A stretch of DNA of 64,000 nt from Hyaloperonospora brassicae (taxonomy: Eukaryota > Oomycota > Peronosporomycetes > Peronosporales > Peronosporaceae). The stretch lies in contig CANTFL010000363.1 of the NCBI GenBank assembly GCA_947650285.1, positions 186,001-250,000 on the forward strand, written 5' to 3'. The notes below the pieces were generated by a model that had not been told where the DNA came from, made no database searches, and saw only the letters and a program-made list of their open reading frames with translations. Below are positions 1-45,997 of the stretch, in pieces; the first letter of the stretch is position 1; every line of letters begins with the position of its first letter. The translations under genes were made by a program, and so were the position numbers.

Positions 1-1
1 C

Positions 2-481
2 GATGATGACTTCATCGTGCTAGATCTGGATGACAAATTTGATGTCATCCTGGGATTACCTTGGCTCAGAAAGTACGAGCCAAGGGTGAGCTGGCAGCAT
101 CGATCCGTGAAGATGCCTGCCGCTTGTTCATCAGATGGCCATCTGATGAACATCTTGGAGCGTCCACAAGCGTGTGGATGTTCTGCGAGTGAGTGCGATG
201 GCCTCACTTGCGGTACGGTCGTTAGCACGACGGCACAAGATCACAGTGTAGTTGATCACTACACTGTGGAGCAAGCTCCCGGCGGCTGTACAGATGTACA
301 GGCTGCGCCGAAGGTCCACCACTCGAATAAGTCGAGTGGACCGGGACATGGATGCATGCCTAGCGGGCAGCATCTTAGAAGAAAGAAATCTGTTGCCCCC
401 AAGGGGCAACATGAAAATCCTAGGTCGACTGGAGAGTCGACCGTAGAGGATCGGTGCCTGACTGTGGTTGCACAGCCATAG
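2..481 (+). pseudogene. Retropepsin C-terminal region of copy 1 Pol (partial)
   Basis: The open frame runs in from the window edge. It carries the DVILGLPWL segment typical of the C-terminal half of retroviral-type aspartic proteases. The catalytic Asp lies outside the window; in copy 2 it is present in a DCGAS motif. The frame ends at an in-frame TAG (479-481) and then continues in the same frame into the reverse transcriptase. Copy 2 has the same TAG at 16101-16103. The stretch after the protease fold has no recognisable domain. Confidence 0.7.
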
Positions 482-571
482 TCGGAAGACGTCGAGGGAA
501 TAAGTCCCCACGTACTTGAGGAAGGAATTCCTCAAGAGTCGCTTGCTGAGGGATCAGGCCCTCAGCAACCT

Positions 572-2480
572 GTGGAAGCAAGTTCCCAGGAAGAAACCGA
601 GACGTTGAACGTCTTGGTTAATGACGGATCAAGCGTAGGCGCTTATACGCTTGATCTGATTGTGCCTCCGAAGTTGACTTCGGAGATAACTCAGTTGCCA
701 ACGCTAGAACCGAAACGGTTCTTGCGTGATCTGCGTAGTGGCAAAGTCAAGCAGATCTGCATACTCGTCACAGAGGATGAGTATGTGACCGATATTCGGT
801 CGGCAACAGTATTTGCTGAGAACTAACGGGTTCTCAGCAGCTCATCGATGGACGAAAGTGTCCTCGATGAGAAGACTCGGATTGAGCGATACGCGTCCCA
901 ATCCTGGGAGTCACTTCAGGCAAATCCTTTGTATGAGGATTTGATCGAATTCAGGGATGTGTTCCCTGAATCCGTACCTTGCGAGTTGCCTAAGGACAAA
1001 GGCACTCGACACGAGATCGAGCTCAAACCGGGCTCGAAGTACTGTGTCATGAAGCAGTGGCCACTGCCTCGTGAACAAGTACTAGCGATCGACAAGTTCT
1101 TTGCCGATCGCTTAGCAGCGGGCCATGTGTAGGGAATCAACATCCCCTCACAGCTCTCCGACCTTCTGTGTGCGAAAGGCCACAGGAGGGTGGCGGATAG
1201 TGCACGCATTCAACAAATTGAATGCTGCAACGGTACCGGCTCAGACGCCGATACCGAGGAAGGACGTAATCATAGATGGTATGTCAAAGAGTACCATCTT
1301 TTCGTCCATGGATCTGATGGATGGATTCTATCAGATCCTGATGCGTGAACGGGACGTCCCGTTCACGGCAGTGAGTACCCCCAGCGGGATGCTGTGAAAG
1401 TGGCTAGTGATGCCACAGGGGCTGAGTAATGCCCCTGCAACATTCAACAGATGTGTTGCAAATCTGTTGAGACCGGTGCGAGACTTCGCACCAAGTTACT
1501 TCGACGATGTGTTCGTCCATAGCCGGGCTATGGACGGAAAGACGGACGTTGAAGTTCACAGAACTCACGTTCGTCAGGTTCTTCAACTTATGCGCAAGTA
1601 TAAGTTGTACGCCAACCTCAAGAAGTGTATATTCGCGGCTAGCGAAATACCACTTCTTGGGTGCATCGTGGGTAAACACGGCGTACGCCCTGATCCCGAA
1701 AAGATCAAGGCGATCACCGACTGGCCAGTGCCAGTCGATGTCAAGGGACTAAGGAAGTTACTTGGTCTTGCGGCGTACTTGCACAAGTACTCGCGCAACT
1801 ACGCCGAGATGACTGTTCATCTTTCTTGCTTGCTCAAGAAAAATGTCAAGTGGTCATGGAACGCTGAGTGCCAGCGTTCCTTTGAAGGTATCAAGCAAAA
1901 CTTGATGCAATCGCCGATCTTGGCGATTGCAGATCAGGACAGACCATTTCATGTGGTCTGTGACGCCAGCGATTTCGCAATCGGCTGTGCGTTAATGCAG
2001 TTCGATGCAGATGGCGCGGAGCGCGTCATCTGTTATCAGTCGCGTCAGCTGCAAGCAGCTGAGCGTAATTACCCAGTGCATGACATGGAACTCCTTGCCA
2101 TGAAATACGCACTGGCTAAGTTTCGCGTCTATCTCTTGGGAGATAGACCGTTTGTTGTCTACACGGACCATGCGTCATTACGCACGGCCGTAAACAGCCC
2201 ACACCTCTCGCAAAGAATGGCGAGTTGGCTGTCTTTCTTCGCGGAGTGTAACTTCTCCGTGGAGTATAAACCAGGACGACTCAATGTCGTCGCTGATGCT
2301 CTTTCGCGCCGGCCCGATTTCGAGCCGGACGCACAATCCAACAGTGAGGATAAGCCCACTGTTGCGACACTGTCAGTCAGTGTCCCGTCGTCAAGTTTAC
2401 TTGACGACGTACAAAAGGCATACGCGGAAGATAAGGATCTTCTGCGATTGATGGATCATCTGGTGAATCCATCCAGTTAA
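572..2480 (+). pseudogene. Reverse transcriptase and RNase H of copy 1 (interrupted)
   Basis: Reverse transcriptase motifs are plain: the MPQGLSNAPATF block at about 1410-1450 and the catalytic YFDDVFVHS box at about 1498-1524 (usual form YxDD). The Ty3-type RNase H follows, with the CDASDFAIG and TDHASL blocks at about 1960 and 2165. In-frame stops fall at 824-826 (TAA), 1395-1397 (TGA, where the family has Trp before the LVMPQG block) and 2478-2480 (TAA). An extra G near 1129 shifts the frame relative to copy 2. The enzyme cannot be made from this copy without multiple read-through events, although nearly all catalytic motifs survive. Confidence 0.88.
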
Positions 2481-2501
2481 TCCAAGGGGGATTTACCGGC
2501 T

Positions 2502-3842
2502 TTGTACCGATCCTCATCGGATCGGTATAGTACACGCAACGGATTGCTGTACTATACAGCTGTTGCCGACGACACGCCTCGTGTCGTCGTACCCGCTCAT
2601 CATGATTTGCGTTTGCGCATCATGTATGAGTGTCACGATGCCCCAACAAGCGGCCATCGTGGAAGGGAAAAGACTTACCTCACGGTAAGTCGTGACTTTT
2701 ACTGTCCCCGCCATTATCAGTTTGTTCGCAAGTACATACGTGCTTGCGAGGTTTGTCAACGGGTGAAGCCTAGTCCTTCATCCCGTGCGCCATTGCAGCC
2801 TCTGCCTGTTCCGACAGAGTGCTGGCAGTCCGTTTCAATGGACTTCGTCTTCGGTTTCCACGAAGACGCTCACAAGAATAATGGTATTCTTGTGTTTGTT
2901 GACCGATTCAGCAAGATGGTCCATCTTGCTGCTGTCCCTGAGTCGATCAAGGCTCAAGGTTGTGCTCGTGTCTTTCTAGACACGGTCTTTAGACTCCACG
3001 GGTTACCCCGTGAACTCGTATCCGACCGTGACCCTCGGTTCACGGCGGCATTTTGGCAAACCGTGTTCCGTACTCTCGGAACACGATTGAAGATGTCCAC
3101 TTCTGACCATCCAGAAACAGATGGTCAGACGGAACGTGCGAACCGTGTCCTCGAAGAGATCCTTCGAGGATATGTCCACTCGTTTCCGAGTTAGAGCGAA
3201 TTCCTACCCATGGTGGAATTCGCCATCAATAATTCGGTGCATGCTTCAACACAGCACACACCGTTTTACGTGAATGGCCTACGCCATCCACGAGTGCCCA
3301 CCCTTATAGAGTGTGACTCTTGGATAAGGGGGGGAGGGACTCGCTCGAGCAAAACCCGTTTTGGCTCTTGCTCATCACATGTCGACGCTAACGTCGTCAC
3401 GTATGATTCCGATGTCGATCAAGTCGACATCGATGAAGAAGATCGCCTCAATAATAGCGATGACGCTATTATTGACTCGGATGATGATGACGATGCTGGT
3501 ATATTCAGCATCGTCAACGATTATGCCAGCGAGGAAAAAGACAACCTCGCTGAAGAAGAGAGCAATCTCTTAGCAGTGCGCACGGAGCGCAATGAAAGAC
3601 AAAACAAAGAGTCAGCAGAGAACTTCCTGCTGACTCGAGAAGCGGTAGTCCGTTTCGTTCAGGACTCCATCGCAAATGCGGTGGACCGTCAGAAACGGAA
3701 CGCAGACAAGAATGGAAGAGCAAATGTTCTTTCATTTAAGGTTAACGACCTAGTACTACTGTCTACGGTAAACCTACCTGGACATGCAGTCACTAGTGTC
3801 GGCAGTAGCAAACTACTGCCGAAGTACATTGGGCCATTTTGA
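2502..3842 (+). pseudogene. Integrase of copy 1 (interrupted)
   Basis: The zinc-binding HHCC head is visible (H..H then CEVCQRVK at about 2748-2771), followed by the DDE core: DFVFG near 2840, SDRDPRF near 3021-3041 and the TDGQTERANR block near 3118-3147 with the catalytic Glu. An in-frame TAG at 3192-3194 sits where Trp is expected in the SWSEFLP segment. After it the frame resumes through the AINNSVHAS block and an acidic Asp/Glu-rich spacer to the GPF motif, where TGA (3840-3842) interrupts again. The acidic insert (about 3400-3570) between the integrase core and the GPF region is longer than usual for chromoviruses. Confidence 0.85.
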
Positions 3843-4714
3843 ATGTTGCATCGCAAGGGCAATGCATACACACTCGAATTGCCACGTAGGATGCGCACGC
3901 ATCCTACGTTTTACGTGGGGGGCTTAGGTCGTACTGTCAGTACGAGCCTTCTTCTTCCGATGAAGATAGCCCCCACGTTCAAGAACATCCATCAAGTTTT
4001 TGCGTTCGCGCTCCAGACGATCCGTCTGGTCGCGCAGATATAATACCTCGGAACTCAACCGAGATATCTCCCCGCGAGCTGTCGCCAGCTCGCCGAATAG
4101 GGAGCGGACATCCCGCTCGACCTGAAGCTGCGCTGTGGCATAATCGGCGCGATCCCTCGCCCGATCAGCCTCGTGACCCTTGCGGTTCTTCCGCACGGTA
4201 TCGGTCAAAGCGTAGCGCCGGTCGCGCTCGTGCTTCAATTCATCGCGCAATTCATCGATTGCGCGATCCATCTCGTAAGGATCGAGATGGTAAACCGAAT
4301 CATCTGGAGGAGGTCTTTCCTCCTCCACCACATCCTTTGGTGGATGCTCACGGTGATCAACGCTTTCTAGTGGAGCGTATCTTGAATCACCGTGACGATT
4401 CAGGATCAAGGACGAGCTACCTCGTCCAGTGGCGGGGGTATCCACCCTCTTGGAACAGCTGGGAGCCCCGCTCTCAGCTGTTGATGGATGTTGAAGGTCT
4501 CGTCCGCCAGTATGACGAGACCCATCCGATGAGTCCTGTAGCCCATCGGCAAACACGCGCCCTAGGCGCTTGTAGACGGATTGCAAGTTTGCAATCGCGT
4601 CACGCATCTCAGCCGAGATGTGTGCCCTTCCCCAGGGCGAATTTAGGGAATACACATCCCTTTGAGCACGCTGCGAGTTGTCAAAACAACTCGCACAAGG
4701 GTCTCCCCATGTGA
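3843..4714 (+). pseudogene. Integrase C-terminal end and chromodomain of copy 1
   Basis: The frame restarts after the TGA with the GNAYTLELP block, then loses frame near the G-run at about 3917 (compare the coding trend downstream). The chromodomain is at about 4366-4530 ([10 protein letters not shown] ... [17 protein letters not shown]), the histone-binding module that Ty3/gypsy chromoviruses fuse to integrase to choose chromatin targets. The aromatic positions of the methyl-lysine cage appear partly kept (W in QWRGY, Y after it). This segment overlaps the C-terminal half of the antisense ORF 5531-3924. Confidence 0.8.
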
Positions 4715-5531
4715 GGCAAGGAATGCCTGCCTCACTCGATAAACTGTGCAACCGGTACCTAGCACCGGTTGGCGTTCTCCTTTTGAACCTGAGGCGTGTC
4801 GCCTCAAGTTTCTTGAGCCACCCTTCTCGTCCAAAATTCTTTACGTTTTGGATGAACGCGTTCCACGCAGCCAAAAGCGATGTTTTGTCACGCTTTTGGT
4901 TGCTGTTGTACCATCGATGTCTAAGAAAGACATCGAGATAAAAGTCTTCCTCAGCGCGAAAGTTCTTCGCGCTGGAACTCAAGCCGTGAAGCTCGGTTGC
5001 ATCGAATAAGGGTATTCGATGGTGTTGGCCTGTCTCGTGAGACAGGCTATTGATGAGCCGTTCGGGCAAACGCCACGGCTTCGACTCATCACGCTTCACA
5101 GTGGTACCCTTGTCGGTACCACGGCTCCCAGATTGACGACGGCTCGCGCCATCGTCATCACGCTCGTGCGAAGACGCACGAGCCGGTGGTGGTAAGGAAT
5201 AGAATTCCTCACCACCCTGATCATCATCATCACTGCCGAACAGACTGTGATGCAAATCACTAGTCCGTTCGTTCGCCAGTGGTCTTGGCGAATGCTGAGG
5301 CGTCGCCGGTGAGCGAGACGCCTCTGGATCATTGCCCGAGTCAGACACGTCTGACTCGCCAGAGTAGATGACCTCTACATCAGGGTCATCGTGCGCACGC
5401 GGTGTGATACCGCGTGCACCTGCAGCACCTGTTGCTGCAGGCGAAGAAGGGGCGGCAGACGACGAATCGTCTGCCGCAGAGGCTGGCACAGCACCGGGCT
5501 GTGTAGGTCTTGAGTCACCTCGCATAGACAT
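3924..5531 (-). CDS. Antisense accessory ORF of the retrotransposon (intact, 535 aa)
   Basis: The ATG at 5531 lies 131 bases inside the 3' LTR, and the frame runs 535 codons against the direction of gag-pol. The N-terminal third is Ser/Pro/Ala/Asp-rich and probably disordered. The middle (about residues 150-300) is a denser, Trp/Arg-containing region ([31 protein letters not shown]). The C-terminal 150 residues are charged and heptad-like ([28 protein letters not shown]), a likely coiled coil ending in a basic RKKKAR tail. The C-terminal half lies opposite the chromodomain, while the N-terminal half covers about 0.9 kb that has no sense ORF. I recognise no family. Antisense ORFs between pol and the 3' LTR are known in some plant gypsy elements (for example Grande). 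Expression is inferred, not shown. Confidence 0.6.
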
Positions 5532-5646
5532 GTTAACTATGCGAGGTCAAGCGGAAAGTGAATGGAACGGACCCAACAAGTGCTCCCTGTCCCAATGGTG
5601 GCCAACGGGTGGCCTCCATATTTTCGATAGTCACACGGTGACTATC

Positions 5647-5661
5647 AGTTAAGGGGGGTGA
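5647..5661 (+). other. Polypurine tract of copy 1
   Basis: AGTTAAGGGGGGTGA lies immediately 5' of the 3' LTR. It is the expected plus-strand priming site of an LTR element, and the same tract is found at the equivalent place in copy 2. Confidence 0.8.
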
Positions 5662-6052
5662 TGTAACGGGGCAGCCCGTTACATGAAATTGTCACTTTAA
5701 GGAAAGTGACAATAAAGAATATAAAGATGGATATTCTTTAAACAATATCACCAAAGTGGTGATATTGAAGGGTCGACCAAAGGGTCTGTTCATTGGTTGA
5801 TTTCTTGATGATATCAACCCACCAATCGCCGCAAGACGCACGCAATGAGTGGTGACGAGACGTCACCATACATCCAATTATTTTAGTATAGTTAAAGTAA
5901 GTCAAACGAAGAGACAGTAGTTTAAAGACTTAATTATATTAATATAACAGTTCTACTTTTACCCTACCTACGCTTCCTCGCTTGCCACGTGTACGCCTGT
6001 CGGGGCACCCAAAACCCTTGCGTTAAGTTACGCAAGGGTGTGCCCCGTTACA
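5662..6052 (+). repeat. 3' LTR of copy 1 (391 bp)
   Basis: It starts TGTAACGGGGCAGCCC and ends GCCCCGTTACA, with the canonical TG...CA termini. Its length is identical to both LTRs of copy 2. It contains strong hairpins such as 5757-5770 and 6013-6038. By eye most of it matches the left LTR of copy 2, while its last ~70 bases share variants with the right LTR of copy 2, so it is a mosaic. Confidence 0.93.
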
Positions 6053-9000
6053 GTAGCTCACTTGTGTCAGCTGTGTCTTCCCGGAGCGTGTCCGGGCGCT
6101 TTTGTACGTATCACAACGTATAATCGACTTGCTTGTGCCGCAGACCATCGATGCAGCTGTTTACAATGATTGCCCAGTGAATTGCACAGAACTTCGGCTT
6201 CTTGTTATATCTTTTTTAATCCCACGCTGATGGATGCCTTGCATTGCTTTGCATGTCCTTTCAACGAAACTGATCGTCACCAATTTGTGAAATAGAGGGT
6301 AACAGCCTTAAACGCCGTCAAGGTGCTTGGCACCGCCGTAAATAGTGCATCGCCACTTCGTTGGTGCGTACTGGTACAATAAGACGGACCGGACCGTGCA
6401 TTATACTTTGATCCATAGAATATTCACTGATACATGTATCGCACGGAACATGAAACGAAGCAAAATGTCTCGACCACCAGCGTATCGATACATGAAAAGA
6501 GCTACTACTGCAAGTGAAATGCGAAACTGCGTGAAAAATACGGCACTATTTCCAGACAATCTACTAGCGAATCGGTATCGGACAACAGTGGCTCGTCTCG
6601 GGCCTTTTGGGCGTCCATGACCATGCAAAGAATTACGAGTCATCGATCAGTATACACAGCGATAACGACCAGGTTGAATTTGGCTTGAGCTGATGCTGCA
6701 GTACTGTATAGAAGATGGAGAGAGACATGTCGTATGTTATCAATCGATTAATAAAGAGGTCAGCACAAATACCGGAAGTGTGAACACTCTTACTTAGCTG
6801 TTTATGAAGTCGACAGGCATGCAAAGATTTGCTTACTTGTATACTGATCAACTTTCTAGACAACAGCTTCATCATGGATCGTACCTCCTGGAATAACTTC
6901 TGCTTTCACAGTCAAACAGATACACGCGCAATAGATCATCAGATCAGTCGTGCGCCGACCCCTCCGTAGCTTCCGGCGAAGTGATTGAAAAATTGAAGTA
7001 TTACGCTCGTAATACTTTACATTCGTCCGGCTAATTGATGTAGAGATTTTCCAGCCTTCGTCTCGTGACCTTGTATGCACGATCAAACATTGATGGATGG
7101 AGATCCGAGGCGAAATATCAGACTTTTACTAACATATACGTGTAAACTATTTCGCATCGAAGTCCATATTGTATCATTGTATCATAGTCATCACTGCCCT
7201 CATTCAGCAGGCGACCGCTACGGAGGCAGCACATCAGAACATGCCGCGTTTTACTGCAGACATGTTGCCTCGATTGTAAGATGATGCTCACATCATCTTG
7301 AGACCGGATGTAGAAGATTTTGACGTTGTCATGCTTTCTACTAACAATCGTTGTTTAAAAAGATCCTTATTCTGTGGCAAGCCACACCAGTTATGTAAAT
7401 CACCTGCACATGGGCTTTGGATCAGTGCTTATCTCGATGATAGCTGACAGGGTTGTCATGATTGTAAGACTGCAGCCAAGTTTTTGGGCTCACAAATAGC
7501 GATAATGTGACACAAGTGTTTGGGTCTTGCGATATTCAGTAATGCACTGTGCAACGTAAAGGTTATGCAATCATTGGCTTTTGCATTACGTATGTTTACA
7601 CTACGTCGGCAGACTCATCCGGTGAACGACGGTCAAGTTCCCTCGATCGTACAATCGTGCGTGCGGTGTGACATTCGATAAGTGAAAGTGCGAAGCCTTC
7701 ATCCTGGCCTCATTTACCGCAATTATCAAAATGTCGCTGATCTTTTGTCCTACGATGCGCAGCAACGTCGCTTGTACGACAATATACAATCGTATGATCC
7801 ATTGCCATTACAATTTTGCCGTACTACATTCATAATGCGGACAGGACACGCAATGAACATACCATACTGAGAAAGGATACACTACGTGATGGCCTTTAAG
7901 AATCACCGTTTCTGGTGCAGGCGGTGTGCGCTGCAACCCTTCCCTTCTAACTTCTATCAATGGATTTAAGTGCACAGTGTTATATTTGTAGACACTTTGT
8001 ATTATCTGGTCAGGCACGGTGGACAATACATTCGAAAAAGCATTGATATCCCGGTAATATTAATCCGGGACGAGCCGCCTCTAAAGACCCACCATATCGG
8101 GGCACTCACAAACCGTAATACACTGCCTACACTCCGCGCTCGTTAAAATCTTAGCCCAACACAATTTGCGACCTGTTCGCCTACATCTGACGCGTATTTA
8201 AATAAGAGCTGCATCTATAGTGATCAAATCGGTCCCTAGCGGCTCAGATTTGCCTGGGTCTATGTGTCTAAAAGCGCTGATGCACCTTCAGTAACCATCA
8301 AAGGAGCGGCACGATAGGCCTTATATCAGACGATTGCCCATCCATGAATACTATTCGGGCCCACATCAGCCATTTTCCAGCTTCTACGATGAACCAGAAG
8401 TATAAAGAGCTGCCACAATCATAATAATGCCCGATGTACCGAAATCGACGCTTTCATATAACGTCGAATCAAACGTAAAACATGTGCTCGGATGGGAGTT
8501 CAGGGTAGTAACGAAAGCCACCATACCATCACAATGAAATCTCATCTGGAGGTAAACCTATACAGGAAAAAGAGCTACCCGACTTTTGAGATTACAAGAG
8601 GTCATCACGCCATCAGCCGGAAAATGCATGGCGATGGCCGAAGCCCAAGCTGTGACGTATTCCGCTATAAAGCACTTACAAATGGCCTGGAGCTCTATCC
8701 ATCGAGATCAAGACATGACGGGTCATGAAGGTGGTGAAGCGCAACTGCAAGACATTTTACAAGTAAGGTCCGGCCTTACGTAATTGGCTGTGAAGTGACG
8801 CCTTGACAGATGAAACAAGAAGGCACGGGCGTTTTGTGAAGAGAAGAGAGATGTGATGGAGAGAGACCGACGCCACGTGACAAGTTGACACTAAAGGCGG
8901 AAAGATAAGAACGCAATATTCAACTTGACACGATCAAGGTGTAGTGTCGTTAAGGATGCATGTCGTAGTGTTGACAAACGAGAGTAATTAGGACTGAATA

Positions 9001-9899
9001 TACCGTATTTAACTCTATCTCTCTTGAGATAAGTGCACGATAGCGTCTACTAACTGATAGATATACCACTCACGCCCACTGGTGAGGGACCAGACCCGTA
9101 TTCGGAGGGACTCTTGGTAAGAATAGTTAAATATTCAATATATATGGACAGACGTTTTCAATCTGCACAAGGGCTGTACTTGCGACGAGATAATACCGGG
9201 TCATTTGACGAAGTCCTGCACCGCAGGACCTGTAGGATTCGAAATGCCCTTTTTTCCACAAAGACACTTATAAGTTTACAGAAAGTCGGTAAATCCGGCG
9301 TATGACAAATTCTGCATGTTTTGATACCAGAAGGTCACATGACCTGGTCCGGTCACTTCATTCTCGCCTCCACCAGAACCTCGAACATCTCCTACGGGGT
9401 CAAATTTGACTGGGATGTCTTGGAATCTGACGTTCCTCGAGCGCCAGTTCGCATGAGGTCGACGCCTCTACCGCCTATTTCTCAGCCTTTTTGTTACCGA
9501 AGTGACGAAAGACACAATCTCCCTCGCTTGTAGTCAGCAGTCGTGCTTCATCGTACGCTGTTTTACGACAGGCGATTCTCCTCACAGCACCTTTGCTACG
9601 GTTTTCACCTCTGTCGCCCTCATCTACTGTTGGTGGCTTTAATGCCGCTTGATGTCCGGATATGTGCGGCGGACCTTCTTGCCTGCCGTCCGCATTGTCT
9701 AGGAGAGCAGTTGCGCCTCCCTTATGCTACTTCCCAACTTTGCGTCAGGCTGATCCTACGTTTCCATCCCCATTGAGACGTGGTGGTGGAGTGGTAGTTC
9801 ATTTTATTCGAGAAAGTATCACTATTGATCCTTTACATACCCGAATACCTGTGTCCATTAACTTTCAGGATTTCCGGCTTGGTGGTGCACCTTTTTGAC
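6053..9899. other. Intergenic spacer between the two retrotransposon copies
   Basis: I see no gene here. Open frames are short (under about 95 codons), use non-ATG starts or lack any recognisable motif. The region is AT-richer than the gene-rich right half. It also lacks the hairpin chain that fills the flanking retrotransposons, which makes it a useful internal control. Confidence 0.6.
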
Positions 9900-10060
9900 C
9901 CTTCGATGCACTCCCTCTACCGGATGTGACAATATTAGGCCCAGCCGGTGGCGCGGCCTGTAACTCGTTCCGAGGTAAACGGAGATGCCCATCTGCCGAG
10001 CTCGAACCCACAACCCCCGGTCGGAATATCTGTGGCTTGACCACTGCACCGCCCCAATTT
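9900..10060 (-). repeat. tRNA-derived SINE-like element
   Basis: Read on the minus strand from about 10055, the sequence begins GGGGCGGTGCAGTGGTCAAG, a good RNA polymerase III A box. About 45 bases further on lies GGGTTCGAGCTC (10009-9998), a B box (consensus GGTTCGANTCC). The intervening and flanking bases do not fold into a full cloverleaf, so it is not a functional tRNA gene. tRNA-derived SINE families are known in Phytophthora. The 3' boundary is a guess and I did not find flanking target duplications. Confidence 0.55.
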
Positions 10061-10529
10061 TTTGGAAAAGTTAATGGAGGGTGTTTAGCTGCGTCGTGTG
10101 GGAAATGTGGCTGAAGCTTATTCGCTTACTGCATATAATGATTCTCTCATACAATGTAGATCAAAGAGTGGGGCTAAAGACAGAGGCACGGGGTACAAGC
10201 CTGAATATGAAATGTAAAACAACAAAAAAGCAGGAAACTTCACAATACGACTGTGCTTGATCTTTACAGTGGAACAGTGTCTGCATTTCTAAACGGGCTT
10301 AAATATTGAGCAGATACGTTCGATAAGAGATATTTGCGCAGACGTGACTTTTACCAGACGGCCGTGTCTGAAATGCTTAAGTATACAGTATGAGGGGCAT
10401 TGTAGTCACTTATGATGTTTGGCGGCATACCAGTGACGAACCTGGAACAATATCATTATACAAGCTTGACCCCAGAAGCATTGACAATATGGCGCAGACA
10501 TTGGAAATCGCTCAAATGAATCTGGCATC
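10061..10529. other. Spacer left of retrotransposon copy 2
   Basis: Nothing recognised: no motif-bearing ORF and no repeat seen by eye. Confidence 0.5.
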
Positions 10530-10534
10530 AGGGT
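10530..10534. repeat. Target-site duplication, left (AGGGT)
   Basis: AGGGT directly precedes the left LTR and recurs directly after the right LTR at 18515-18519. A five-base duplication is typical of Ty3/gypsy integration. It shows that copy 2 is one complete insertion event. Confidence 0.88.
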
Positions 10535-10925
10535 TGTAACGGGGCACACCCTTGCGTAACTTAACGCAAGGGTTTTGGATGGCCCGACGGACGTACACGT
10601 GGCAAGCGAGGAAGCTTAGGTAGGGTAAAAGTAGAACTGTTATATTAATATAATTAAGTCTTTAAACTACTGTCTCTTCGTTTGACTTAGTTTAACTATA
10701 CTAAAATAATTGGATGTATGGTGACGTCTCGTCACCACTCATTGCGCGCGTCTTGCGGCGATTGGTGGGTTGATATCATCAAGAAATCAACCAATGAACA
10801 GACCCTTTGGTCGACCCTTCAATATCACCACTTTGGTGATATTGTTTAAAGAATATCCATCTTTATATTCTTTATTGTCACTTTCCTTAAAGTGACAATT
10901 TCATGTAACGGGCTGCCCCGTTACA
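10535..10925 (-). repeat. 3' LTR of copy 2 (left end)
   Basis: 391 bp with TG...CA ends. In sense orientation it starts TGTAACGGGGCAGCCC directly after the polypurine tract. It differs from its partner LTR in three small clusters (near 10577-10584, 10613 and 10702-10708) and at 10787-10791. Confidence 0.95.
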
Positions 10926-10940
10926 TCACCCCCCTTAACT
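10926..10940 (-). other. Polypurine tract of copy 2
   Basis: The reverse complement reads AGTTAAGGGGGGTGA and abuts the 3' LTR, exactly as in copy 1. Confidence 0.8.
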
Positions 10941-11055
10941 GATAGTCACCGTGTGACTATCGAAAATATGGAGGCCACCCGTTGGCCACCATTGGGACAG
11001 GGAGCACTTGTTGGGTCCGTTCCATTCACTTTCCGCTTGACCTCGCATAGTTAAC

Positions 11056-12664
11056 ATGTCTATGCGAGGTGACTCAAGACCTACACAGCCCGGTGCTGTG
11101 CCAGCCTCTGCGGCAGACGATTCGTCGTCTGCCGCCCCTTCTTCGCCTGCAGCAACAGGTGCTGCAGGTGCACGCGGTATCACACCGCGTGCGCACGATG
11201 ACCCTGATGTAGAGGTCATCTACTCTGGCGAGTCAGACGTGTCTGACTCGGGCAATGATCCAGAGGCGTCTCGCTCACCGGCGACGCCTCAGCATTCGCC
11301 AAGACCACTGGCGAACGAACGGACTAGTGATTTGCATCACAGTCTGTTCGGCAGTGATGATGATGATCAGGGTGGTGAGGAATTCTATTCCTTACCACCA
11401 CCGGCTCGTGCGTCTTCGCACGAGCGTGATGACGATGGCGCGAGCCGTCGTCAATCTGGGAGCCGTGGTACCGACAAGGGTACCACTGTGAAGCGTGATG
11501 AGTCGAAGCCGTGGCGTTTGCCCGAACGGCTCATCAATAGCCTGTCTCACGAGACAGGCCAACACCATCGAATACCCTTATTCGATGCAACCGAGCTTCA
11601 CGGCTTGAGTTCCAGCGCGAAGAACTTTCGCGCTGAAGAAGATTTGTATCTCGATGTCTTCCTTAGACATCGATGGTACAACAGCAACCAAAAGCGTGAC
11701 AAAACATCGCTTTTGGCTGCGTGGAACGCGTTCGTCCAAAACGTAAAGAATTTTGGACGAGAAGGGTGGCTCAAGAAACTTGAGGCGACACGCCTCAGGT
11801 TCGAAAGGCGAACGCCAACCGGTGCTAGGTACCGGTTGCATTGTTTATCGAGTGATGCCGGCATTCCTTGCCTCACATGGGGAGACCCTTGTGCGAGTTG
11901 TGTTGACAACTCGCAACGTGCACATAGGGATGTGTATTCCCCTAAATTCGCCCTGGGGAAGGGCACACATCTCAGCTGAGATGCGTGACGCGATTGCAAA
12001 CTTGCAATCCGTCTACAAGCGCCTAGGGCGCGTGTTTACCGATGGGCCACAGGACTCATCGGATGGGTCTCGTCATACTGGCGGACGAGACCTTCAACAT
12101 CCATCAACAGCTGAGAGCGGGGCTCCCAGCTGTTCCAAGAGGGTGGATACCCCCGCCACTGGACGAGGTAGCTCGTCCTTGATCCTGAATCGTCACGGTG
12201 ATTCAAGATACGCTCCACTAGAAAGCGTTGATCACCGTGAGCATCCACCAAAGGATGTGGTGGAGGAGGAAAGACCTCCTCCAGATGATTCGGTTTACCA
12301 TCTCGATCCTTACGAGATGGATCGCGCAATCGATGAATTGCGCGATGAATTGAAGCACGAGCGCGACCGGCGCTACGCTTTGACCGATACCGTGCGGAAG
12401 AACCGCAAGGGTCACGAGGCTGATCGGGCGAGGGATCGCGCCGATTATGCCACAGCGCAGCTTCAGGTCGAGCGGGATGTCCGCTCCCTATTCGGCGAGC
12501 TGGCGACAGCTCGCGGGGAGATATCTCGGTTGAGTTCCGAGGTATCATATCTGCGCGACCAGACGGATCGTCTGGAGCGCGAACGCAAGAACTTGATGGA
12601 TGTTCTTGAACGTGGGGGCTATCTTCATCGGAAGAAGAAGGCTCGTACTGACAGTACGACCTAA
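11056..12664 (+). pseudogene. Antisense accessory ORF of copy 2, frameshifted
   Basis: This is homologous to the intact 535-codon ORF of copy 1 and starts at the equivalent ATG (11056). The frame is open to 11979, but its true continuation lies in another frame up to 12664. The difference from copy 1 is one extra C in a C-run at 11939-11942. The two halves together match the copy 1 protein with few substitutions, so the break is recent or is a sequencing error. The charged coiled-coil-like C-terminus is intact in the second half. Confidence 0.6.
12036..12548 (-). pseudogene. Chromodomain region of copy 2 Pol
   Basis: A 170-codon open frame contains the chromodomain ([10 protein letters not shown] ... 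[17 protein letters not shown]) after a long basic/Pro-rich linker. It is the targeting module at the C-terminus of chromovirus integrase. It is now separated from the integrase frame by the GPF-TGA stop and a frame change, and it lies opposite the antisense ORF. Confidence 0.82.
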
Positions 12665-12745
12665 GCCCCCCACGTAAAACGTAGGATGCGTGCGCATCCT
12701 ACGTGGTAATTCGAGTGTGTATGCATTGCCCTTGCGATGCAACAT

Positions 12746-14082
12746 TCAAAATGGCCCAATGTACTTCGGCAGTAGTTTGCTACTGCCGACACTAGTGACT
12801 GCATGTCCAGGTAGGTTTACCGTTGACAGTAGTACTAGGTCGTTAACCTTAAATGAAAGAACATTTGCTCTTCCATTCTTGTCTGCGTTCCGTTTCTGAC
12901 GGTCCACCGCATTTGCGATGGAGTCCTGAACGAAACGGACTACCGCTTCTCGATTCAGCAGGAAGTTCTCTGCTAACTCTTTGTTTTGTCGTTCAGTGCA
13001 CTTCGTGCGCACTGCTAAGAGATTGTTCTCTTCTTCAGCGAGGTTGTCTTCTTCCTCGCTGACATAATCGTTGGCGATGCTGAATATACCAGCATCGTCA
13101 TCATCCGAATCAATAATAGCGTCTTCGCTATTATTGAGATGATCTTCTTCATCGATGTCGACTTGATCGACATCGGCATCAGACGTGACGACGTTTGCGT
13201 CGACACGTGATGAGCAAGAGCCAAAACGGGTTTTGCTCGAGCGAGTCCCTCCCCCCTTATCCAAGAGTCACACTCTATAAGGGTGGGCACTCGTGGATGG
13301 CGTAGGCCATTCACGTAAAACGGTGTGTGCTGTGTTGAAGCATGCACCGAATTATTGATGGCGAATTCCACCATGGGTAGGAATTCGCTCTAACTCGGAA
13401 ACGAGTGGACATATCCTCGAAGGATCTCTTCGAGGACACGGTTCGCACGTTCCGTCTGACCATCTGTTTCTGGATGGTCAGAAGTGGACATCTTCAATCG
13501 TGTTCCGAGAGTACGGAACACGGTTTGCCAAAATGCCGCCGTGAACCGAGGGTCACGGTCGGATACGAGTTCACGGGGTAACCCGTGGAGTCTAAAGACC
13601 GTGTCTAGAAAGACACGAGCACAACCTTGAGCCTTGATCGACTCAGGGACAGCAGCAAGATGGACCATCTTGCTGAATCGGTCAACAAACACAAGAATAC
13701 CATTATTCTTGTGAGCGTCTTCGTGGAAACCGAAGACGAAGTCCATTGAAACGGACTGCCAGCACTCTGTCGGAACAGGCAGAGGCTGCAATGGCGCACG
13801 GGATGAAGGACTAGGCTTCACCCGTTGACAAACCTCGCAAGCACGTATGTACTTGCGAACAAACTGATAATGGCGGGGACAGTAAAAGTCACGACTTACC
13901 GTGAGGTAAGTCTTTTCCCTTCCACGATGGCCGCTTGTTGGGGCATCGTGACACTCATACATGATGCGCAAACGCAAATCATGATGAGCGGGTACGACGA
14001 CACGAGGCGTGTCGTCGGCAACAGCTGTATAGTACAGCAATCCGTTGCGTGTACTATACCGATCCGATGAGGATCGGTACAA
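12746..14082 (-). pseudogene. Integrase of copy 2 (interrupted)
   Basis: The HHCC head, the DDE core (SDRDPRF, TDGQTERANR) and the acidic spacer are as in copy 1. The core frame is 13390-14082. It ends at the shared TAG (complement of 13390-13392), and the remainder to 12746 is split by a one-base difference in the G-run at 13250-13255. The frame is also offset from RNase H by one missing base in the run at 14094-14097. Confidence 0.85.
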
Positions 14083-14102
14083 AGCCGGTAAATCCCCTTG
14101 GA

Positions 14103-16010
14103 TTAACTGGATGGATTCACCAGATGATCCATCAATCGCAGAAGATCCTTATCTTCCGCGTATGCCTTTTGTACGTCGTCAAGTAAACTTGACGACGGGA
14201 CACTGACTGACAGTGTCGCAACAGTGGGCTTATCCTCACTGTTGGATTGTGCGTCCGGCTCGAAATCGGGCCGGCGCGAAAGAGCATCAGCGACGACATT
14301 GAGTCGTCCTGGTTTATACTCCACGGAGAAGTTACACTCCGCGAAGAAAGACTGCCAACTCGCCATTCTTTGCGAGAGGTGTGGGCTGTTTACGGCCGTG
14401 CGTAATGACGCATGGTCCGTGTAGACAACAAACGGTCTATCTCCCAAGAGATAGACGCGAAACTTAGCCAGTGCGTATTTCATGGCAAGGAGTTCCATGT
14501 CATGCACTGGGTAATTACGCTCAGCTGCTTGCAGCTGACGCGACTGATAACAGATGACGCGCTCCGCGCCATCTGCATCGAACTGCATTAACGCACAGCC
14601 GATTGCGAAATCGCTGGCGTCACAGACCACATGAAATGGTCTGTCCTGATCTGCAATCGCCAAGATCGGCGATTGCATCAAGCTTTGCTTGATACCTTCA
14701 AAGGAACGCTGGCACTCAGCGTTCCATGACCACTTGACATTTTTCTTGAGCAAGCAAGAAAGATGAACAGTCATCTCGGCGTAGTTGCGCGAGTACTTGT
14801 GCAAGTACGCCGCAAGACCAAGGAACTTTCTTAGTCCCTTGACATCGACTGGCACTGGCCAGTCGGTGATCACCTTGATCTTTTCGGGATCAGGGCGTAC
14901 GCCGTGTTTACCCACGATGCACCCAAGAAGTGGTATTTCGCTAGCCGCGAATATACACTTCTTGAGGTTGGCGTACAACTTATACTTGCGCATAAGTTGA
15001 AGAACCTGACGAACGTGAGTTCTGTGAACTTCAACGTCCGTCTTTCCGTCCATATCCCGGCTATGGACGAACACATCGTCGAAGTAACTCGGCGCGAAGT
15101 CTCGCACCGGTCTCAACAGATTTGTAACACATCTGTTGAATGTTGCAGGGGCATTACTCAGCCCCTGTGGCATCACTAGCCACTTTCACAGCATCCCGCT
15201 GGGGGTACTCACTGCCGTGAACGGGACGTCCCGTTCACGCATCAGGATCTGATAGAATCCATCCATCAGATCCATGGACGAAAAGATGGTACTCTTTGAC
15301 ATACCATCTATGATTACGTCCTTCCTCGGTATCGGCGTCTGAGCCGGTACCGTTGCAGCATTCAATTTGTTGAATGCGTGCACTATCCGCCACCCTCCTG
15401 TGGCCTTTCGCACACAGAAGGTCGGAGAGCTGTGAGGGGATGTTGATTCCCTAACATGGCCCGCTGCTAAGCGATCGGCAAAGAACTTGTCGATCGCTAG
15501 TACTTGTTCACGAGGCAGTGGCCACTGCTTCATGACACAGTACTTCGAGCCCGGTTTGAGCTCGATCTCGTGTCGAGTGCCTTTGTCCTTAGGCAACTCG
15601 CAAGGTACGGATTCAGGGAACACATCCCTGAATTCGATCAAATCCTCATACAAAGGATTTGCCTGAAGTGACTCCCAGGATTGGGACGCGTATCGCTCAA
15701 TCCGAGTCTTCTCATCGAGGACACTTTCGTCCATCGATGAGCTGCTGAGAACCCGTTAGTTCTCAGCAAATACTGTTGCCGACCGAATATCGGTCACATA
15801 CTCATCCTCTGTGACGAGTATGCAGATCTGCTTGACTTTGCCACTACGCAGATCACGCAAGAACCGTTTCGGTTCTAGCGTTGGCAACTGAGTTATCTCC
15901 GAAGTCAACTTCGGAGGCACAATCAGATCAAGCGTATAAGCGCCTACGCTTGATCCGTCATTAACCAAGACGTTCAACGTCTCGGTTTCTTCCTGGGAAC
16001 TTGCTTCCAC
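14103..16010 (-). pseudogene. Reverse transcriptase and RNase H of copy 2 (interrupted)
   Basis: The N-terminal RT half is uninterrupted at 15734-15186, which shows that the frame break in copy 1 near 1129 is private to copy 1. The YFDD catalytic box lies near 15085 and the RNase H blocks CDASDFAIG and TDHASL near 14620 and 14415. The shared stops are at 15756-15758 (TAA), 15186-15188 (TGA) and 14103-14105 (TAA). The 84-codon piece at 16010-15756 upstream is a linker with no recognised motif. Confidence 0.88.
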
Positions 16011-16100
16011 AGGTTGCTGAGGGCCTGATCCCTCAGCAAGCGACTCTTGAGGAATTCCTTCCTCAAGTACGTGGGGACTTATTCCCTCGACGTCTTCCGA

Positions 16101-16874
16101 CTATGGCTGTGCAACCACAGTCAGGCACCGATCCTCTACGGTCGACTCTCCAGTCGACCTAGGATTTTCATGTTGCCCCTTGGGGGCAACAGATTTCTTT
16201 CTTCTAAGATGCTGCCCGCTAGGCATGCATCCATGTCCCGGTCCACTCGACTTATTCGAGTGGTGGACCTTCGGCGCAGCCTGTACATCTGTACAGCCGC
16301 CGGGAGCTTGCTCCACAGTGTAGTGATCAACTACACTGTGATCTTGTGCCGTCGTGCTAACGACCGTACCGCAAGTGAGGCCATCGCACTCACTCGCAGA
16401 ACATCCACACGCTTGTGGACGCTCCAAGATGTTCATCAGATGGCCATCTGATGAACAAGCGGCAGGCATCTTCACGGATCGATGCTGCCAGCTCACCCTT
16501 GGCTCGTACTTTCTGAGCCAAGGTAATCCCAGGATGACATCAAATTTGTCATCCAGATCTAGCACGATGAAGTCATCATCGTACTGTTCGCCCTCTAACG
16601 TGTAGTGGATTCCTACTACACGTTTCTCAACGGTAATCGATGCGCCTGTTGCAAGGCGCACCGTCATCCTTGTGAGGTGAATGTCGCGCTCAACGAACTT
16701 GAGCCTACGACCCTCTAGTGACTGGCGACGAACAAAGTTGTTCGACGCCCCACAGTCTACTAGGGCACGAAGCGACAAATCATTTGTCGCTTCCAACTTC
16801 AAGGTGATGAGCGAAACGTCATCACCAGGTGCAGAGACACACAATGATTGTGTATCTGGAGCAACTTTCGTCAA
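16101..16874 (-). CDS. Retropepsin region of copy 2 Pol
   Basis: A 257-codon open frame with the aspartic-protease active site as VDCGASNNFV (about residues 38-47 from 16874), where the usual motif is D[ST]GA, and the second structural motif DVILGLPWL. The first codon of the frame is TTG, so it is probably expressed as part of Gag-Pol rather than from its own start. It lies in a different frame from Gag, 50 bases downstream of the Gag stop, which implies frameshifting or decay at the Gag-Pro junction. It ends at the shared TAG. The roughly 110 residues after the protease fold are unassigned. Confidence 0.7.
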   Translation of the reverse strand: MTKVAPDTQSLCVSAPGDDVSLITLKLEATNDLSLRALVDCGASNNFVRRQSLEGRRLKFVERDIHLTRMTVRLATGASITVEKRVVGIHYTLEGEQYDDDFIVLDLDDKFDVILGLPWLRKYEPRVSWQHRSVKMPAACSSDGHLMNILERPQACGCSASECDGLTCGTVVSTTAQDHSVVDHYTVEQAPGGCTDVQAAPKVHHSNKSSGPGHGCMPSGQHLRRKKSVAPKGQHENPRSTGESTVEDRCLTVVAQP

Positions 16875-16924
16875 GAGATTTGCAAATTCTCTTGAGGTTG
16901 CTGGATCAGTAGGGCGCTCCGCCC

Positions 16925-18079
16925 CTACTGACCCCGACCATTTTTTGATGGTCCGTCTCGCTGTTGCGGCTTCGCAACAGCGCTGGACCCACGCCCATTG
17001 CCCTTTCTGGCGAATGTTCGTCCATTTCGCTCAGTACTGTTTGGTACTGGGCGTGGAGCACTACACTCGTATGCGTAGTGCCCTAACTTCTGACAGCGAT
17101 TGCACCTCTGCAATCGCTTGTTGTTCGAAGAGCGAGGTCTCTCGCTCTCAACATAGCAGAGGTCCATTGGTTCTGGACCTCCGATCTCGTGTCGTCTCGG
17201 TGGACGGTAAGATTTTGAGCTAGCATGAGCCTGTCTCATGCTAAAGTCTTCCTGTTCCGCGGCTGATATCGCTTCTTCAAGCGTATTCAGCTCAAGGCGG
17301 AACAGATGGCTCCTGACGGGCCCTTCTGCGAGCCCTTGCATGAACACCGTAATCAACGTGTGTTCATGGACTGGGTTGGCAGTTATACTACTCGCAAGGA
17401 GTCGTATATGTTGTGCGTAAGCGTGCACATCACGCTTACCCTGCTTGAGTTTCAGGAGCTCTGAACGAGCCCTGAACTCAGCCCGTGGCGGCTCAAACGT
17501 TTGTCTGAGCCGGGACTTGAAGTCATCTAGCGACCTAAACACATTTGGGTCGCTACTCTCGAGTCCCAGGGACCAAGTTTTGGCACGCCCTGCCAAGTGG
17601 GTCTGAGCAAATGTGAGTTTCATTTGCTCATCTTCGACGCGACGAGCCCTTAGGGCTCTGTCGAGTTCGACAAACCATAGTAACAGGGAGTCCTCCGGGA
17701 CTCCACTGTACTTGGAGATGTCAACTTTCATGACTTCGGGACGACGCGCATGCGCCGTCCCGCCCACAGCAGCATGGAATTGCTGCTGTCTCAACAGCTC
17801 CGTCTGTTGAGCACCGAGTTCTCTCAACTGCTCGGCCTGTTGAGAGCCTTGCTGGTGAAGCAAGGCTACTTTCTCCCTCTCGAGAGCAAGTTCATTCTGA
17901 ATGAACTTGGCAATAGCGGCATGTTGTTGGTCTCTGTCTAGAGACTCCAACATGGCGCTAACGACGAGTTCGCCCACGGTAGAACTCATTCGTTCTACCG
18001 CACCCCATTCGATGTCACTCAAATGGGTAAACCCTTCACGCGTGGCGTGAAAGGTGTCTTCTTCATCCAACATGTTCAT
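16925..18079 (-). CDS. Gag of copy 2 (384 aa, one zinc knuckle)
   Basis: The ATG at 18079 follows the 5' LTR and primer-binding site by about 40 bases. Residues about 60-110 form a Gln/Glu-rich coiled coil (QQGSQQAEQLREL). The middle, with YSGVPEDSLLLWFVEL and a downstream Leu/Arg-rich part, is the capsid-like retrotrans_gag region. Near residue 335 there is a CCHC knuckle (CNRCQKLGHYAYEC, C-x2-C-x4-H-x4-C), followed by a basic Gly/Arg tail. The reading frame is intact, unlike Pol. Gag would form the particle and bind element RNA. Confidence 0.85.
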   Translation of the reverse strand: MNMLDEEDTFHATREGFTHLSDIEWGAVERMSSTVGELVVSAMLESLDRDQQHAAIAKFIQNELALEREKVALLHQQGSQQAEQLRELGAQQTELLRQQQFHAAVGGTAHARRPEVMKVDISKYSGVPEDSLLLWFVELDRALRARRVEDEQMKLTFAQTHLAGRAKTWSLGLESSDPNVFRSLDDFKSRLRQTFEPPRAEFRARSELLKLKQGKRDVHAYAQHIRLLASSITANPVHEHTLITVFMQGLAEGPVRSHLFRLELNTLEEAISAAEQEDFSMRQAHASSKSYRPPRRHEIGGPEPMDLCYVESERPRSSNNKRLQRCNRCQKLGHYAYECSAPRPVPNSTERNGRTFARKGNGRGSSAVAKPQQRDGPSKNGRGQ

Positions 18080-18104
18080 GTTGGATGATGTGGTCCTTGG
18101 AAGG

Positions 18105-18121
18105 ACTACAAAGTGCTACCA
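18105..18121 (-). other. Primer-binding site of copy 2
   Basis: Two bases inside the 5' LTR the sense strand reads TGGTAGCACTTTG. TGG complements the CCA tail of a tRNA, and TGGTAGC resembles the initiator-tRNA-Met site used by some elements such as Ty1. The exact tRNA cannot be confirmed without the host tRNA set. Confidence 0.5.
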
Positions 18122-18123
18122 GG

Positions 18124-18514
18124 TGTAACGGGGCACACCCTTGCGTAACTTAACGCAAGGGTTTTCGGTGCCCCGACGGACGTACACGTGGCAAGCGAGG
18201 AAGCGTAGGTAGGGTAAAAGTAGAACTGTTATATTAATATAATTAAGTCTTTAAACTACTGTCTCTTCGTTTGACTTAGTTTAACTATACTAATATAACT
18301 GGATGTATGGTGACGTCTCGTCACCACTCATTGCGCGCGTCTTGCGGCGATTGGTGGGTTGATATCATCTCGATATCAACCAATGAACAGACCCTTTGGT
18401 CGACCCTTCAATATCACCACTTTGGTGATATTGTTTAAAGAATATCCATCTTTATATTCTTTATTGTCACTTTCCTTAAAGTGACAATTTCATGTAACGG
18501 GCTGCCCCGTTACA
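18124..18514 (-). repeat. 5' LTR of copy 2 (right end)
   Basis: 391 bp, TG...CA ends, followed on the right by the AGGGT target duplication. It differs from the left LTR by about nine bases by eye, in small clusters. Confidence 0.95.
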
Positions 18515-18519
18515 AGGGT
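18515..18519. repeat. Target-site duplication, right (AGGGT)
   Basis: Same five bases as 10530-10534, directly abutting the LTR terminus. Confidence 0.88.
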
Positions 18520-45503: not shown

Positions 45504-45997
45504 CGTCCCGAGCGACGGCAGAACGAGTGTGTGCGTGTGTGTGTCTCGCCGCCGGTCGTTGGCAGTAGGAGGTCCGTAGGTCGCACGTGTCAAGAATCGA
45601 GTCGTGTCATTACGTGTGCAACTGTGTGTGTGTGTGTGTGTGTATCCTCTCGCAGCGTTATAGCTGACCAGCGTTGCATGTGTCCTCCACAGGGTATCGT
45701 CACCTAAGCGTCCGCCAGGGTATCATCCCCTCCGAGAGTGTCCTCCCGAAGGGTATCAACTATCAGAGAGCCTCAATGCGCCCGCGACGCAGGCAATCGC
45801 TCGTCCCCCTCGACACTATCCCGTCCAACCCGATACAGCCCGCGCTCGTCGAGTATCACAGGGTATGCGTTCTCCCCGCACTCACGCGCCCCGCCCTGCC
45901 GCCTTCTTTCTCGAACCAGACGAAGAACAACAGGCCACGTACCGACGTACGTACGTCAGTCAGTCTGTCAGTCTATCTGTCTATCTGTCAGTCTGTC
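45504..45997. other. Spacer with (GT)n and (GTCA/TCTG)n microsatellites
   Basis: A (GT)n tract lies near 45623-45643 and a TCAGTCTGTC/TATCTGTC array near 45955-45997, directly before the next start codon. The open frame crosses this array in repetitive VSLSVYLS-type sequence, which looks like untranslated leader rather than protein. Confidence 0.6.

Follow-up and report, generated by a model that had tools for sequence, protein, structure and literature searches.

What keeps the nucleic acid of a retrotransposon folded from one end to the other? This question is raised by a stretch of 64,000 nucleotides from the oomycete Hyaloperonospora brassicae (assembly GCA_947650285.1, contig CANTFL010000363.1, positions 186,001 to 250,000 of the forward strand), herein called the window. 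It carries two copies of a long terminal repeat (LTR) element of the Ty3/gypsy type in opposite orientations: copy 1, whose 5′ end lies outside the window, and copy 2, which is complete. A first-pass annotation of the sequence had described copy 1 as a near-continuous chain of short hairpins. This chain is confirmed as real and extreme, the hairpin density of the element being about 20 times that expected by chance. We read it as self-folding of the whole element that is maintained by selection during retrotransposition, and as a novel form of genome-scale ordered structure.

Hairpin density and codon choice

A stem is herein a perfect inverted repeat, counted without overlap and, unless stated otherwise, with an arm of at least 7 bp and a loop of at most 15 nt. 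Copy 1 contains 100 such stems, corresponding to 16.5 per kb and 38.5% of its length, whereas dinucleotide shuffles yield 0.81 per kb (about five in total); copy 2 contains 136 (17.0 per kb against 0.78). The comparison with shuffles that had been proposed as a check, hence, leaves the element far above the shuffled density (16.5–17.0 against about 0.8 per kb). The 4.5 kb separating the copies hold three stems; rightward of copy 2, 63 stems lie in 45.5 kb, which is slightly above chance (1.39 per kb against 0.92 shuffled, with totals of 35–57 in 10 shuffles). Overall, the window outside both copies has about 1.3 stems per kb. With arms of at least 9 bp, 52 stems are left in copy 1, 70 in copy 2, and five in all of the remaining window. 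The six inverted repeats that the first-pass annotation had singled out are all present where it had placed them, those at 127–150 and 1344–1367 being perfect 24-bp palindromes.

At a looser threshold (arm of at least 6 bp, loop of at most 20 nt), the 7980 bases of copy 2 contain 174 stems that cover 49.5% of it. This amounts to one stem per approximately 46 bases, wider than the 25–35 bases claimed at first, and the chain is interrupted by longer gaps: the median distance between stems is 14 nt, and 14 gaps exceed 60 nt, ranging from 60 to 200 bases. Among the 174, arms are spread nearly evenly over lengths of 6, 7, 8, and 9 bp, above which the number is roughly halved with each additional base pair; a single stem has an arm above 12 bp. 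Loop sizes peak at 4–5, and the excess of stems is greatest for loops below 20 nt and weak above 40. The two copies and their near relatives in the same genome are referred to as family A. The 60 loci L001–L060, located on many contigs, are all rich in hairpins, with 8.4–17.7 stems per kb; two loci that are 25–26% diverged (L080 and L083) have few (4.7 and 2.6 per kb).

The features of the two copies are as follows (ORF, open reading frame; RT, reverse transcriptase).
1–6052 (+): copy 1, hairpin-rich Ty3/gypsy element with its 5′ end outside the window; inverted match to copy 2, 93–100% in pieces
127–150 (no strand): perfect 24-bp palindrome, read in the sequence
1344–1367 (no strand): perfect 24-bp palindrome within the RT-coding stretch, read in the sequence
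1407–2480 (+): open frame of copy 1 that encodes the 3′ part of the RT, and RNase H (Pfam RVT_1, RT_RNaseH, RT_RNaseH_2)
2502–3194 (+): integrase, open frame of copy 1 (Pfam Integrase_H2C2, rve)
3924–5531 (−): antisense ORF of 535 amino acids in the 3′ portion of the element, opposite the chromodomain
4364–4561 (+): chromodomain of the pol polyprotein (Pfam Chromo, E 6.2e-15)
5651–5658 (+): purine run resembling a polypurine tract, directly before the 3′ LTR, read in the sequence
5662–6052 (+): 3′ LTR of copy 1, TG...CA, 391 nt, matching the outer LTR of copy 2 at 97%
10535–18514 (−): copy 2, complete from LTR to LTR, 7980 bp, with a 5-bp direct repeat on its flanks
10535–10925 (−): 3′ LTR of copy 2, from the LTR match
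11056–12664 (+): antisense ORF of copy 2, split between two overlapping frames
13390–14082 (−): integrase of copy 2, 100% amino acid identity to copy 1
14103–15176 (−): RT–RNase H of copy 2, 98% amino acid identity to copy 1
16925–18079 (−): gag of copy 2 with a zinc knuckle (Pfam Retrotrans_gag, Ty3_capsid, zf-CCHC_3)
18124–18514 (−): 5′ LTR of copy 2, from the LTR match

Within each ORF, synonymous codons were permuted 100 times with the protein and the codon usage preserved. The RT–RNase H ORF has 17 stems against 1.07 after permutation (maximum 5), the integrase ORF 12 against 0.95 (maximum 3), the antisense ORF 29 against 2.31 (maximum 6), and the gag ORF 20 against 1.65 (maximum 5). Since the stems vanish under synonymous permutation, the hairpins in coding sequence are achieved largely through codon choice, as had been supposed for the RT, RNase H, and integrase motifs. 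The spacer and the neighboring host genes had been said to lack hairpins; this holds for the spacer and for five of six non-element ORFs of the window, which are near the null under the same permutation. The sixth, at 45674–47482 (+), has seven stems against 2.60, which equals the largest of its 100 permutations. As for codon phase, pairing of third position with third position is scarcer in stems, but permuted sequence behaves likewise.

As judged from its sequence, the element belongs to the Ty3/gypsy retrotransposons, is present in multiple copies, and carries a chromodomain. It has LTRs of 391 nt, a 5-bp target repeat, and RT–RNase H ahead of integrase, and the chromodomain that follows the integrase (4364–4561, +) is the hallmark of chromoviruses. 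The natural open frame of another family A locus, L012 (1221 amino acids), contains, by Pfam, the gypsy-type succession of protease, RT, RNase H, and integrase; in the PDB, the RT best matches 4ol8_A and 7q5b_A, of which the second is Ty3-G Gag-Pol. In its own genome (100.6 Mb, 898 contigs), the RT has at least 114 matches with at least 96% amino acid identity, 111 of them without a stop (hand count among the best 114 of 5970 candidates). The antisense ORF of 535 amino acids has no Pfam match; among the 125 genome matches that score best against its N-terminal 320 amino acids, 114 are free of stops by hand count, a selection of top scores that favors good copies. Searching positions 1–20000 against Rfam gave no match, and no relatives of the element were found in the scanned viral and prokaryote contigs. 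The oomycete gypsy groups, including Chronos, have been described, and the word hairpin is absent from the accessible text of that description (PMC5348765). Chromodomain-bearing Ty3/gypsy elements, namely, the chromoviruses and the Chronos group, share with the element the order Gag–protease–RT–RNase H–integrase–chromodomain, the LTRs, and the 5-bp target repeat; they differ in that the element has the hairpin chain and the antisense ORF, whereas Chronos has a second, archaeal-type RNase H. The latter, which together with the chromodomain would mark a Chronos element, was not detected by Pfam in the L012 frame (only RT_RNaseH and RT_RNaseH_2), where a diverged domain could escape. A literature search, the coverage of which mostly excluded subscription papers, returned no retroelement with such a hairpin chain.

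Folding strength and related families

Folding excess is herein the minimum folding energy beyond that of dinucleotide shuffles, determined in 350-nt fragments. For copy 2, it amounts to 46.6% in the sense strand (44 fragments, the lowest at 28.3%) and 46.2% in the antisense strand, compared with 2.3–3.8% for the spacer and two host ORFs, 0.3% for a distant gypsy locus (L073), and 2.8% for a copia locus (L063). The element transcript, for which a check by folding energy had been proposed at the outset, is therefore predicted to fold far beyond shuffles. All 44 fragments reach at least 28%, so that folding beyond composition extends over the whole element, as it does in viruses with genome-scale ordered RNA structure (GORS). 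In the accessible text of PMC7642675, hepatitis C virus has values of 7–9% and SARS-CoV-2 about 15%, and the listed vertebrate RNA viruses reach at most 23.4%; these were obtained with another shuffling program and step, so that the comparison, by which the folding excess in the family of the window is roughly double that of the top-ranking virus, is approximate. The RNA of phage MS2, a known structured genome, has a folding excess of 28.3% (sense) and 23.8% (antisense) under our own protocol. It resembles the element in the strong folding of both strands and differs in its density of perfect stems, 2.2 per kb compared with 17.0 per kb, and in having G-U or A-C pairs in 22–26% of extended stems against 6–8%.

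Related families of the same genome were compared over 1.4–2.2 kb each: B (L086, L078), C (L085 and L089), and D (L087, L088), with 53–63% amino acid identity to A across approximately 1.4 kb of pol. L089 was considered as a fifth family E; instead, it is a 94% relative of C. Families B and C are hairpin-rich, with 9 and 7 stems (B) and 11 stems (C) in 1.4 kb at arms of at least 7 bp, which none of 200 synonymous permutations reaches. In family D, such stems are at chance level (1 and 0, none longer), and the excess lies in short arms: 27 and 28 arms of 5 bp against about 11, and 12 and 11 arms of 6 bp against about 3. This arm-length range of 5–6 bp is unlike that of family A. The folding excess is 12% in C and, in D, 11–13% in the sense and 16% in the antisense strand. 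More distant retroelements, namely, 12 copia loci and three RT loci (L073, L075, L076), have 0.5–2.5 stems per kb against 0.7–1.2 shuffled. Copia is mildly above chance, eight of the 12 loci having 1.6–2.5 stems per kb; the synonymous-permutation test on a 1.4-kb part of copia locus L063 was null. One apparent distant hairpin-rich relative, L077, turned out to be a family A element inserted in a decayed, distantly related gypsy element, with 20 of its 21 stems in the inserted part.

The families have the property in common, but mostly not the hairpins. Allowing at most one broken pair, neither B nor C, D, or E retains any of the 22–24 stems of A, and in the reverse direction one of 12 B stems is kept in A. 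At the positions of A stems, 35–45% of pairs still pair in the other families, against 25–28% in a slid control; between B and C, which have 74% amino acid identity, four of 12 and five of 17 stems are shared. Since the property is clade-wide and no A stem is kept, individual hairpins turn over, as they do in GORS. Related families with mostly different hairpins point to a pressure for being folded and not for particular structures; hence, the pressure seems to act on foldedness as such. The likeness to GORS viruses, as far as the accessible descriptions go, comprises the folding excess along the whole genome, the hundreds of short-range stem-loops in coding sequence, and the poor conservation of their positions between relatives. 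Unlike these viruses, the element is an LTR retrotransposon with 46.6% excess, long and perfect Watson–Crick arms, strand symmetry, and an antisense ORF. The stem arms may carry a slight protein cost: amino acid conservation relative to family C is 0.51 for codons in A arms and 0.63 for others (P = 0.03), and the other families show the same direction more weakly.

Strand symmetry, constraint, and the origin of the stems

A stem selected in the sense RNA should tolerate G-U better than A-C, and this bears on the proposal that the sense RNA alone is selected to fold, for packaging, nuclease resistance, or hiding from RNA sensors, as has been put forward for GORS RNA viruses, in which the structure is linked to poor recognition of the RNA by innate defenses (accessible text of PMC3950689). 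The folding excess, the turnover of positions, and the constraint at the codon level are all GORS-like, the loops of gag-pol are A-rich, and in family D stems extended by G-U outnumber those extended by A-C. The stems of A, on the other hand, are nearly free of G-U. Single mismatches beside copy 2 stems comprise 13 G-T and 7 A-C (P = 0.26), and G-U and A-C occur at similar frequencies in extended stems (7.7% and 6.1% in copy 2; 8.0% and 7.4% in L012). Stable RNA tetraloops are not preferred (GNRA in one of 29 sense and three of 29 antisense loops), and both strands fold alike (46.6% and 46.2%), a test that is not sharp, MS2 being symmetric too. Selection on the sense RNA alone, which would be the simplest reading, is lowered by the equality of G-U and A-C and by the strand-equal folding; it stays a rival and survives better than the others, and we consider it unlikely. 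From the near-symmetric pairing, which is strictly Watson–Crick and includes the LTRs, both strands, or the DNA, appear folded, the symmetry being no proof of a DNA level since MS2 is likewise symmetric.

Constraint on the arms was assessed in an alignment of 66 sequences over 2.2 kb of pol. Herein, arms were defined in older copies, which makes the definition of a stem independent of changes in young copies; an earlier estimate from close copies (mostly 0.000–0.003 in arms, 0.02–0.03 elsewhere) was discarded as biased, its stems having been defined in the copy of the window. Among 30 young copies, common variants (minor allele in at least three) occupy three of 664 arm sites and 32 of 1530 sites elsewhere (P = 0.0045); at third codon positions, the counts are one of 226 and 28 of 506 (P = 0.00035), and for any variable site, 16 of 664 and 82 of 1530. 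In 34 older copies, private changes, most of them acquired once the copy had been inserted, amount to 0.244 per arm site and 0.269 elsewhere (ratio 0.91). Because these are nearly equal, the arms are not cold spots for chromosomal mutation. The contrast suggests that the arms are protected while the lineage replicates, at least in this part of pol, and a mutation-rate effect confined to replication would fit too. In the related families, degenerate codons for the same residue are more often identical in arms than in the rest (B–C, 0.59 against 0.21; C–E, 0.96 against 0.88; the two D loci, 0.71 against 0.59). Compensatory changes are too rare for a covariation proof of the stems. The selection for pervasive RNA folding that had been offered as a cause is thus in keeping with the arm constraint in the replicating lineage, while its assignment to the sense RNA is unsupported, the pairing being nearly strand-symmetric.

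The same data bear on selection at the DNA level, by which hairpins in the single-stranded cDNA or in the DNA copy would serve reverse transcription, integration, or chromatin. Strict Watson–Crick pairing, symmetric between strands and including the LTRs, is what this explanation expects, and a constraint confined to the replicating lineage fits a cDNA stage. In older copies, however, the arms are unconstrained, which disfavors a function of the stems once the copy resides in the chromosome, and we know of no DNA-level role for hundreds of short stems. We regard selection on the DNA as improbable.

Reverse-transcription template switching could make and perfect palindromes with no benefit involved, a possibility that had also been raised at first. 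Template switching can create and repair perfect hairpins, and perfect inverted repeats with short loops are its expected product (accessible text of PMC8794818). It predicts clustered changes that are templated by nearby inverted sequence, together with paired changes in both arms. Clusters of changes do exceed the simulation (664 against 506; 228 against 148 with at least three changes), and the LTRs of copy 2 differ at nine of 391 sites, six of which lie in two clusters of three, each within 5–6 bases. The surplus of clusters can, however, be produced by shared ancestry and uneven constraint, and the element lacks the templated excess expected of template-switch hairpins: across 63 copies and 2.2 kb, only three of the 664 clusters could have been copied from an inverted sequence nearby, whereas the simulation yields 2.3 (four of 396 among distinct clusters). 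Alternative Watson–Crick pairs are found in 28 cells against 716 broken ones, of 21,913, and the four of 29 polarized changes on the A lineage that make a pair are single substitutions at separate places. Correction by template switching should leave many positions changed yet still paired; kept stems show 0–2 per comparison. Few templated clusters and rare alternative pairs make it unlikely that template switching maintains the stems today, no footprint of it being seen in recent history; it may still have acted at their origin. As a full explanation of the chain, it has slightly poorer prospects than selection on the DNA. Chance, base composition, and an artefact of assembly or reading are practically eliminated by the shuffles, the synonymous-codon permutations, and the 60 hairpin-rich loci from many contigs.

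Two further observations concern the neighborhood of the element. A tandem repeat of approximately 144 bases at 38629–40086, with nine partly overlapping register copies of 60–98% identity, lies in an ORF at 37384–40308 (−) that matches DUF2807. The ORF at 21306–22997 (+) encodes 564 amino acids with a chromodomain and has no clear hairpin excess; it is possibly a host gene, and its assignment to another element was rejected, no RT of the element's kind being found beside it in the window.

A proposed escape from silencing and its meaning

The reading preferred herein, to which we assign a probability of roughly 0.45, is that of a multi-copy chromodomain Ty3/gypsy element whose nucleic acid is kept folded end to end, with both transcripts folding on themselves and the element thereby escaping silencing. 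From the strand-equal Watson–Crick pairing together with the antisense ORF, we infer that the sense and the antisense transcript would each fold back on itself rather than form duplexes with the opposite transcript or with small RNAs. Such self-folding would hinder sense–antisense pairing and hide the transcripts from small RNAs; antisense transcription, folding in the cell, and reduced silencing are what we infer from this arrangement. Arms of up to 12 bp are so short that Dicer would process them poorly. If the host resembles Phytophthora, arms of this length would fold the RNA without offering a good Dicer substrate. In Phytophthora, small RNAs of 25/26 nt derive mainly from transposable elements and those of 21 nt from inverted repeats (accessible text of PMC3804510).

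Several results weigh against this reading. The loops of gag-pol contain 29.7% A and 22.4% T (P = 0.007), which is a hint of the sense strand; the stretches between stems of gag-pol lean the same way (25.2% A, 22.8% T), and no such bias exists in the antisense-ORF region. In family D, G-U exceeds A-C in the extended stems of both loci (21 against 12 and 16 against 13), a hint of single-strand RNA selection in D, yet its antisense strand folds no worse. The folding excess of family B is only about 6%, so that not every relative needs strong folding, and eight of 37 and five of 37 short stems of D are also present in A, by which positions are not wholly independent. Moreover, the substitution test is limited to 2.2 kb of pol, and the surplus of change clusters described above belongs on this side as well.

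The findings suggest an unusually strong need of the element to stay self-folded. That a whole clade of retrotransposons evolved self-folding of both strands in order to escape duplex-triggered, small-RNA silencing, each family with its own hairpins through codon choice, is a more tentative proposal. By contrasting the replicating lineage with older copies, selection on nucleic-acid structure can be measured apart from mutation. A single genome provides a ready comparison set for small-RNA and expression data, its retroelements being extreme in family A, intermediate in B and C, short-armed in D, and unfolded in others. It thus becomes testable whether foldedness, regardless of sequence, shields a transposon from its host; if so, self-folding would be a general, sequence-independent counter-defense of a mobile element.

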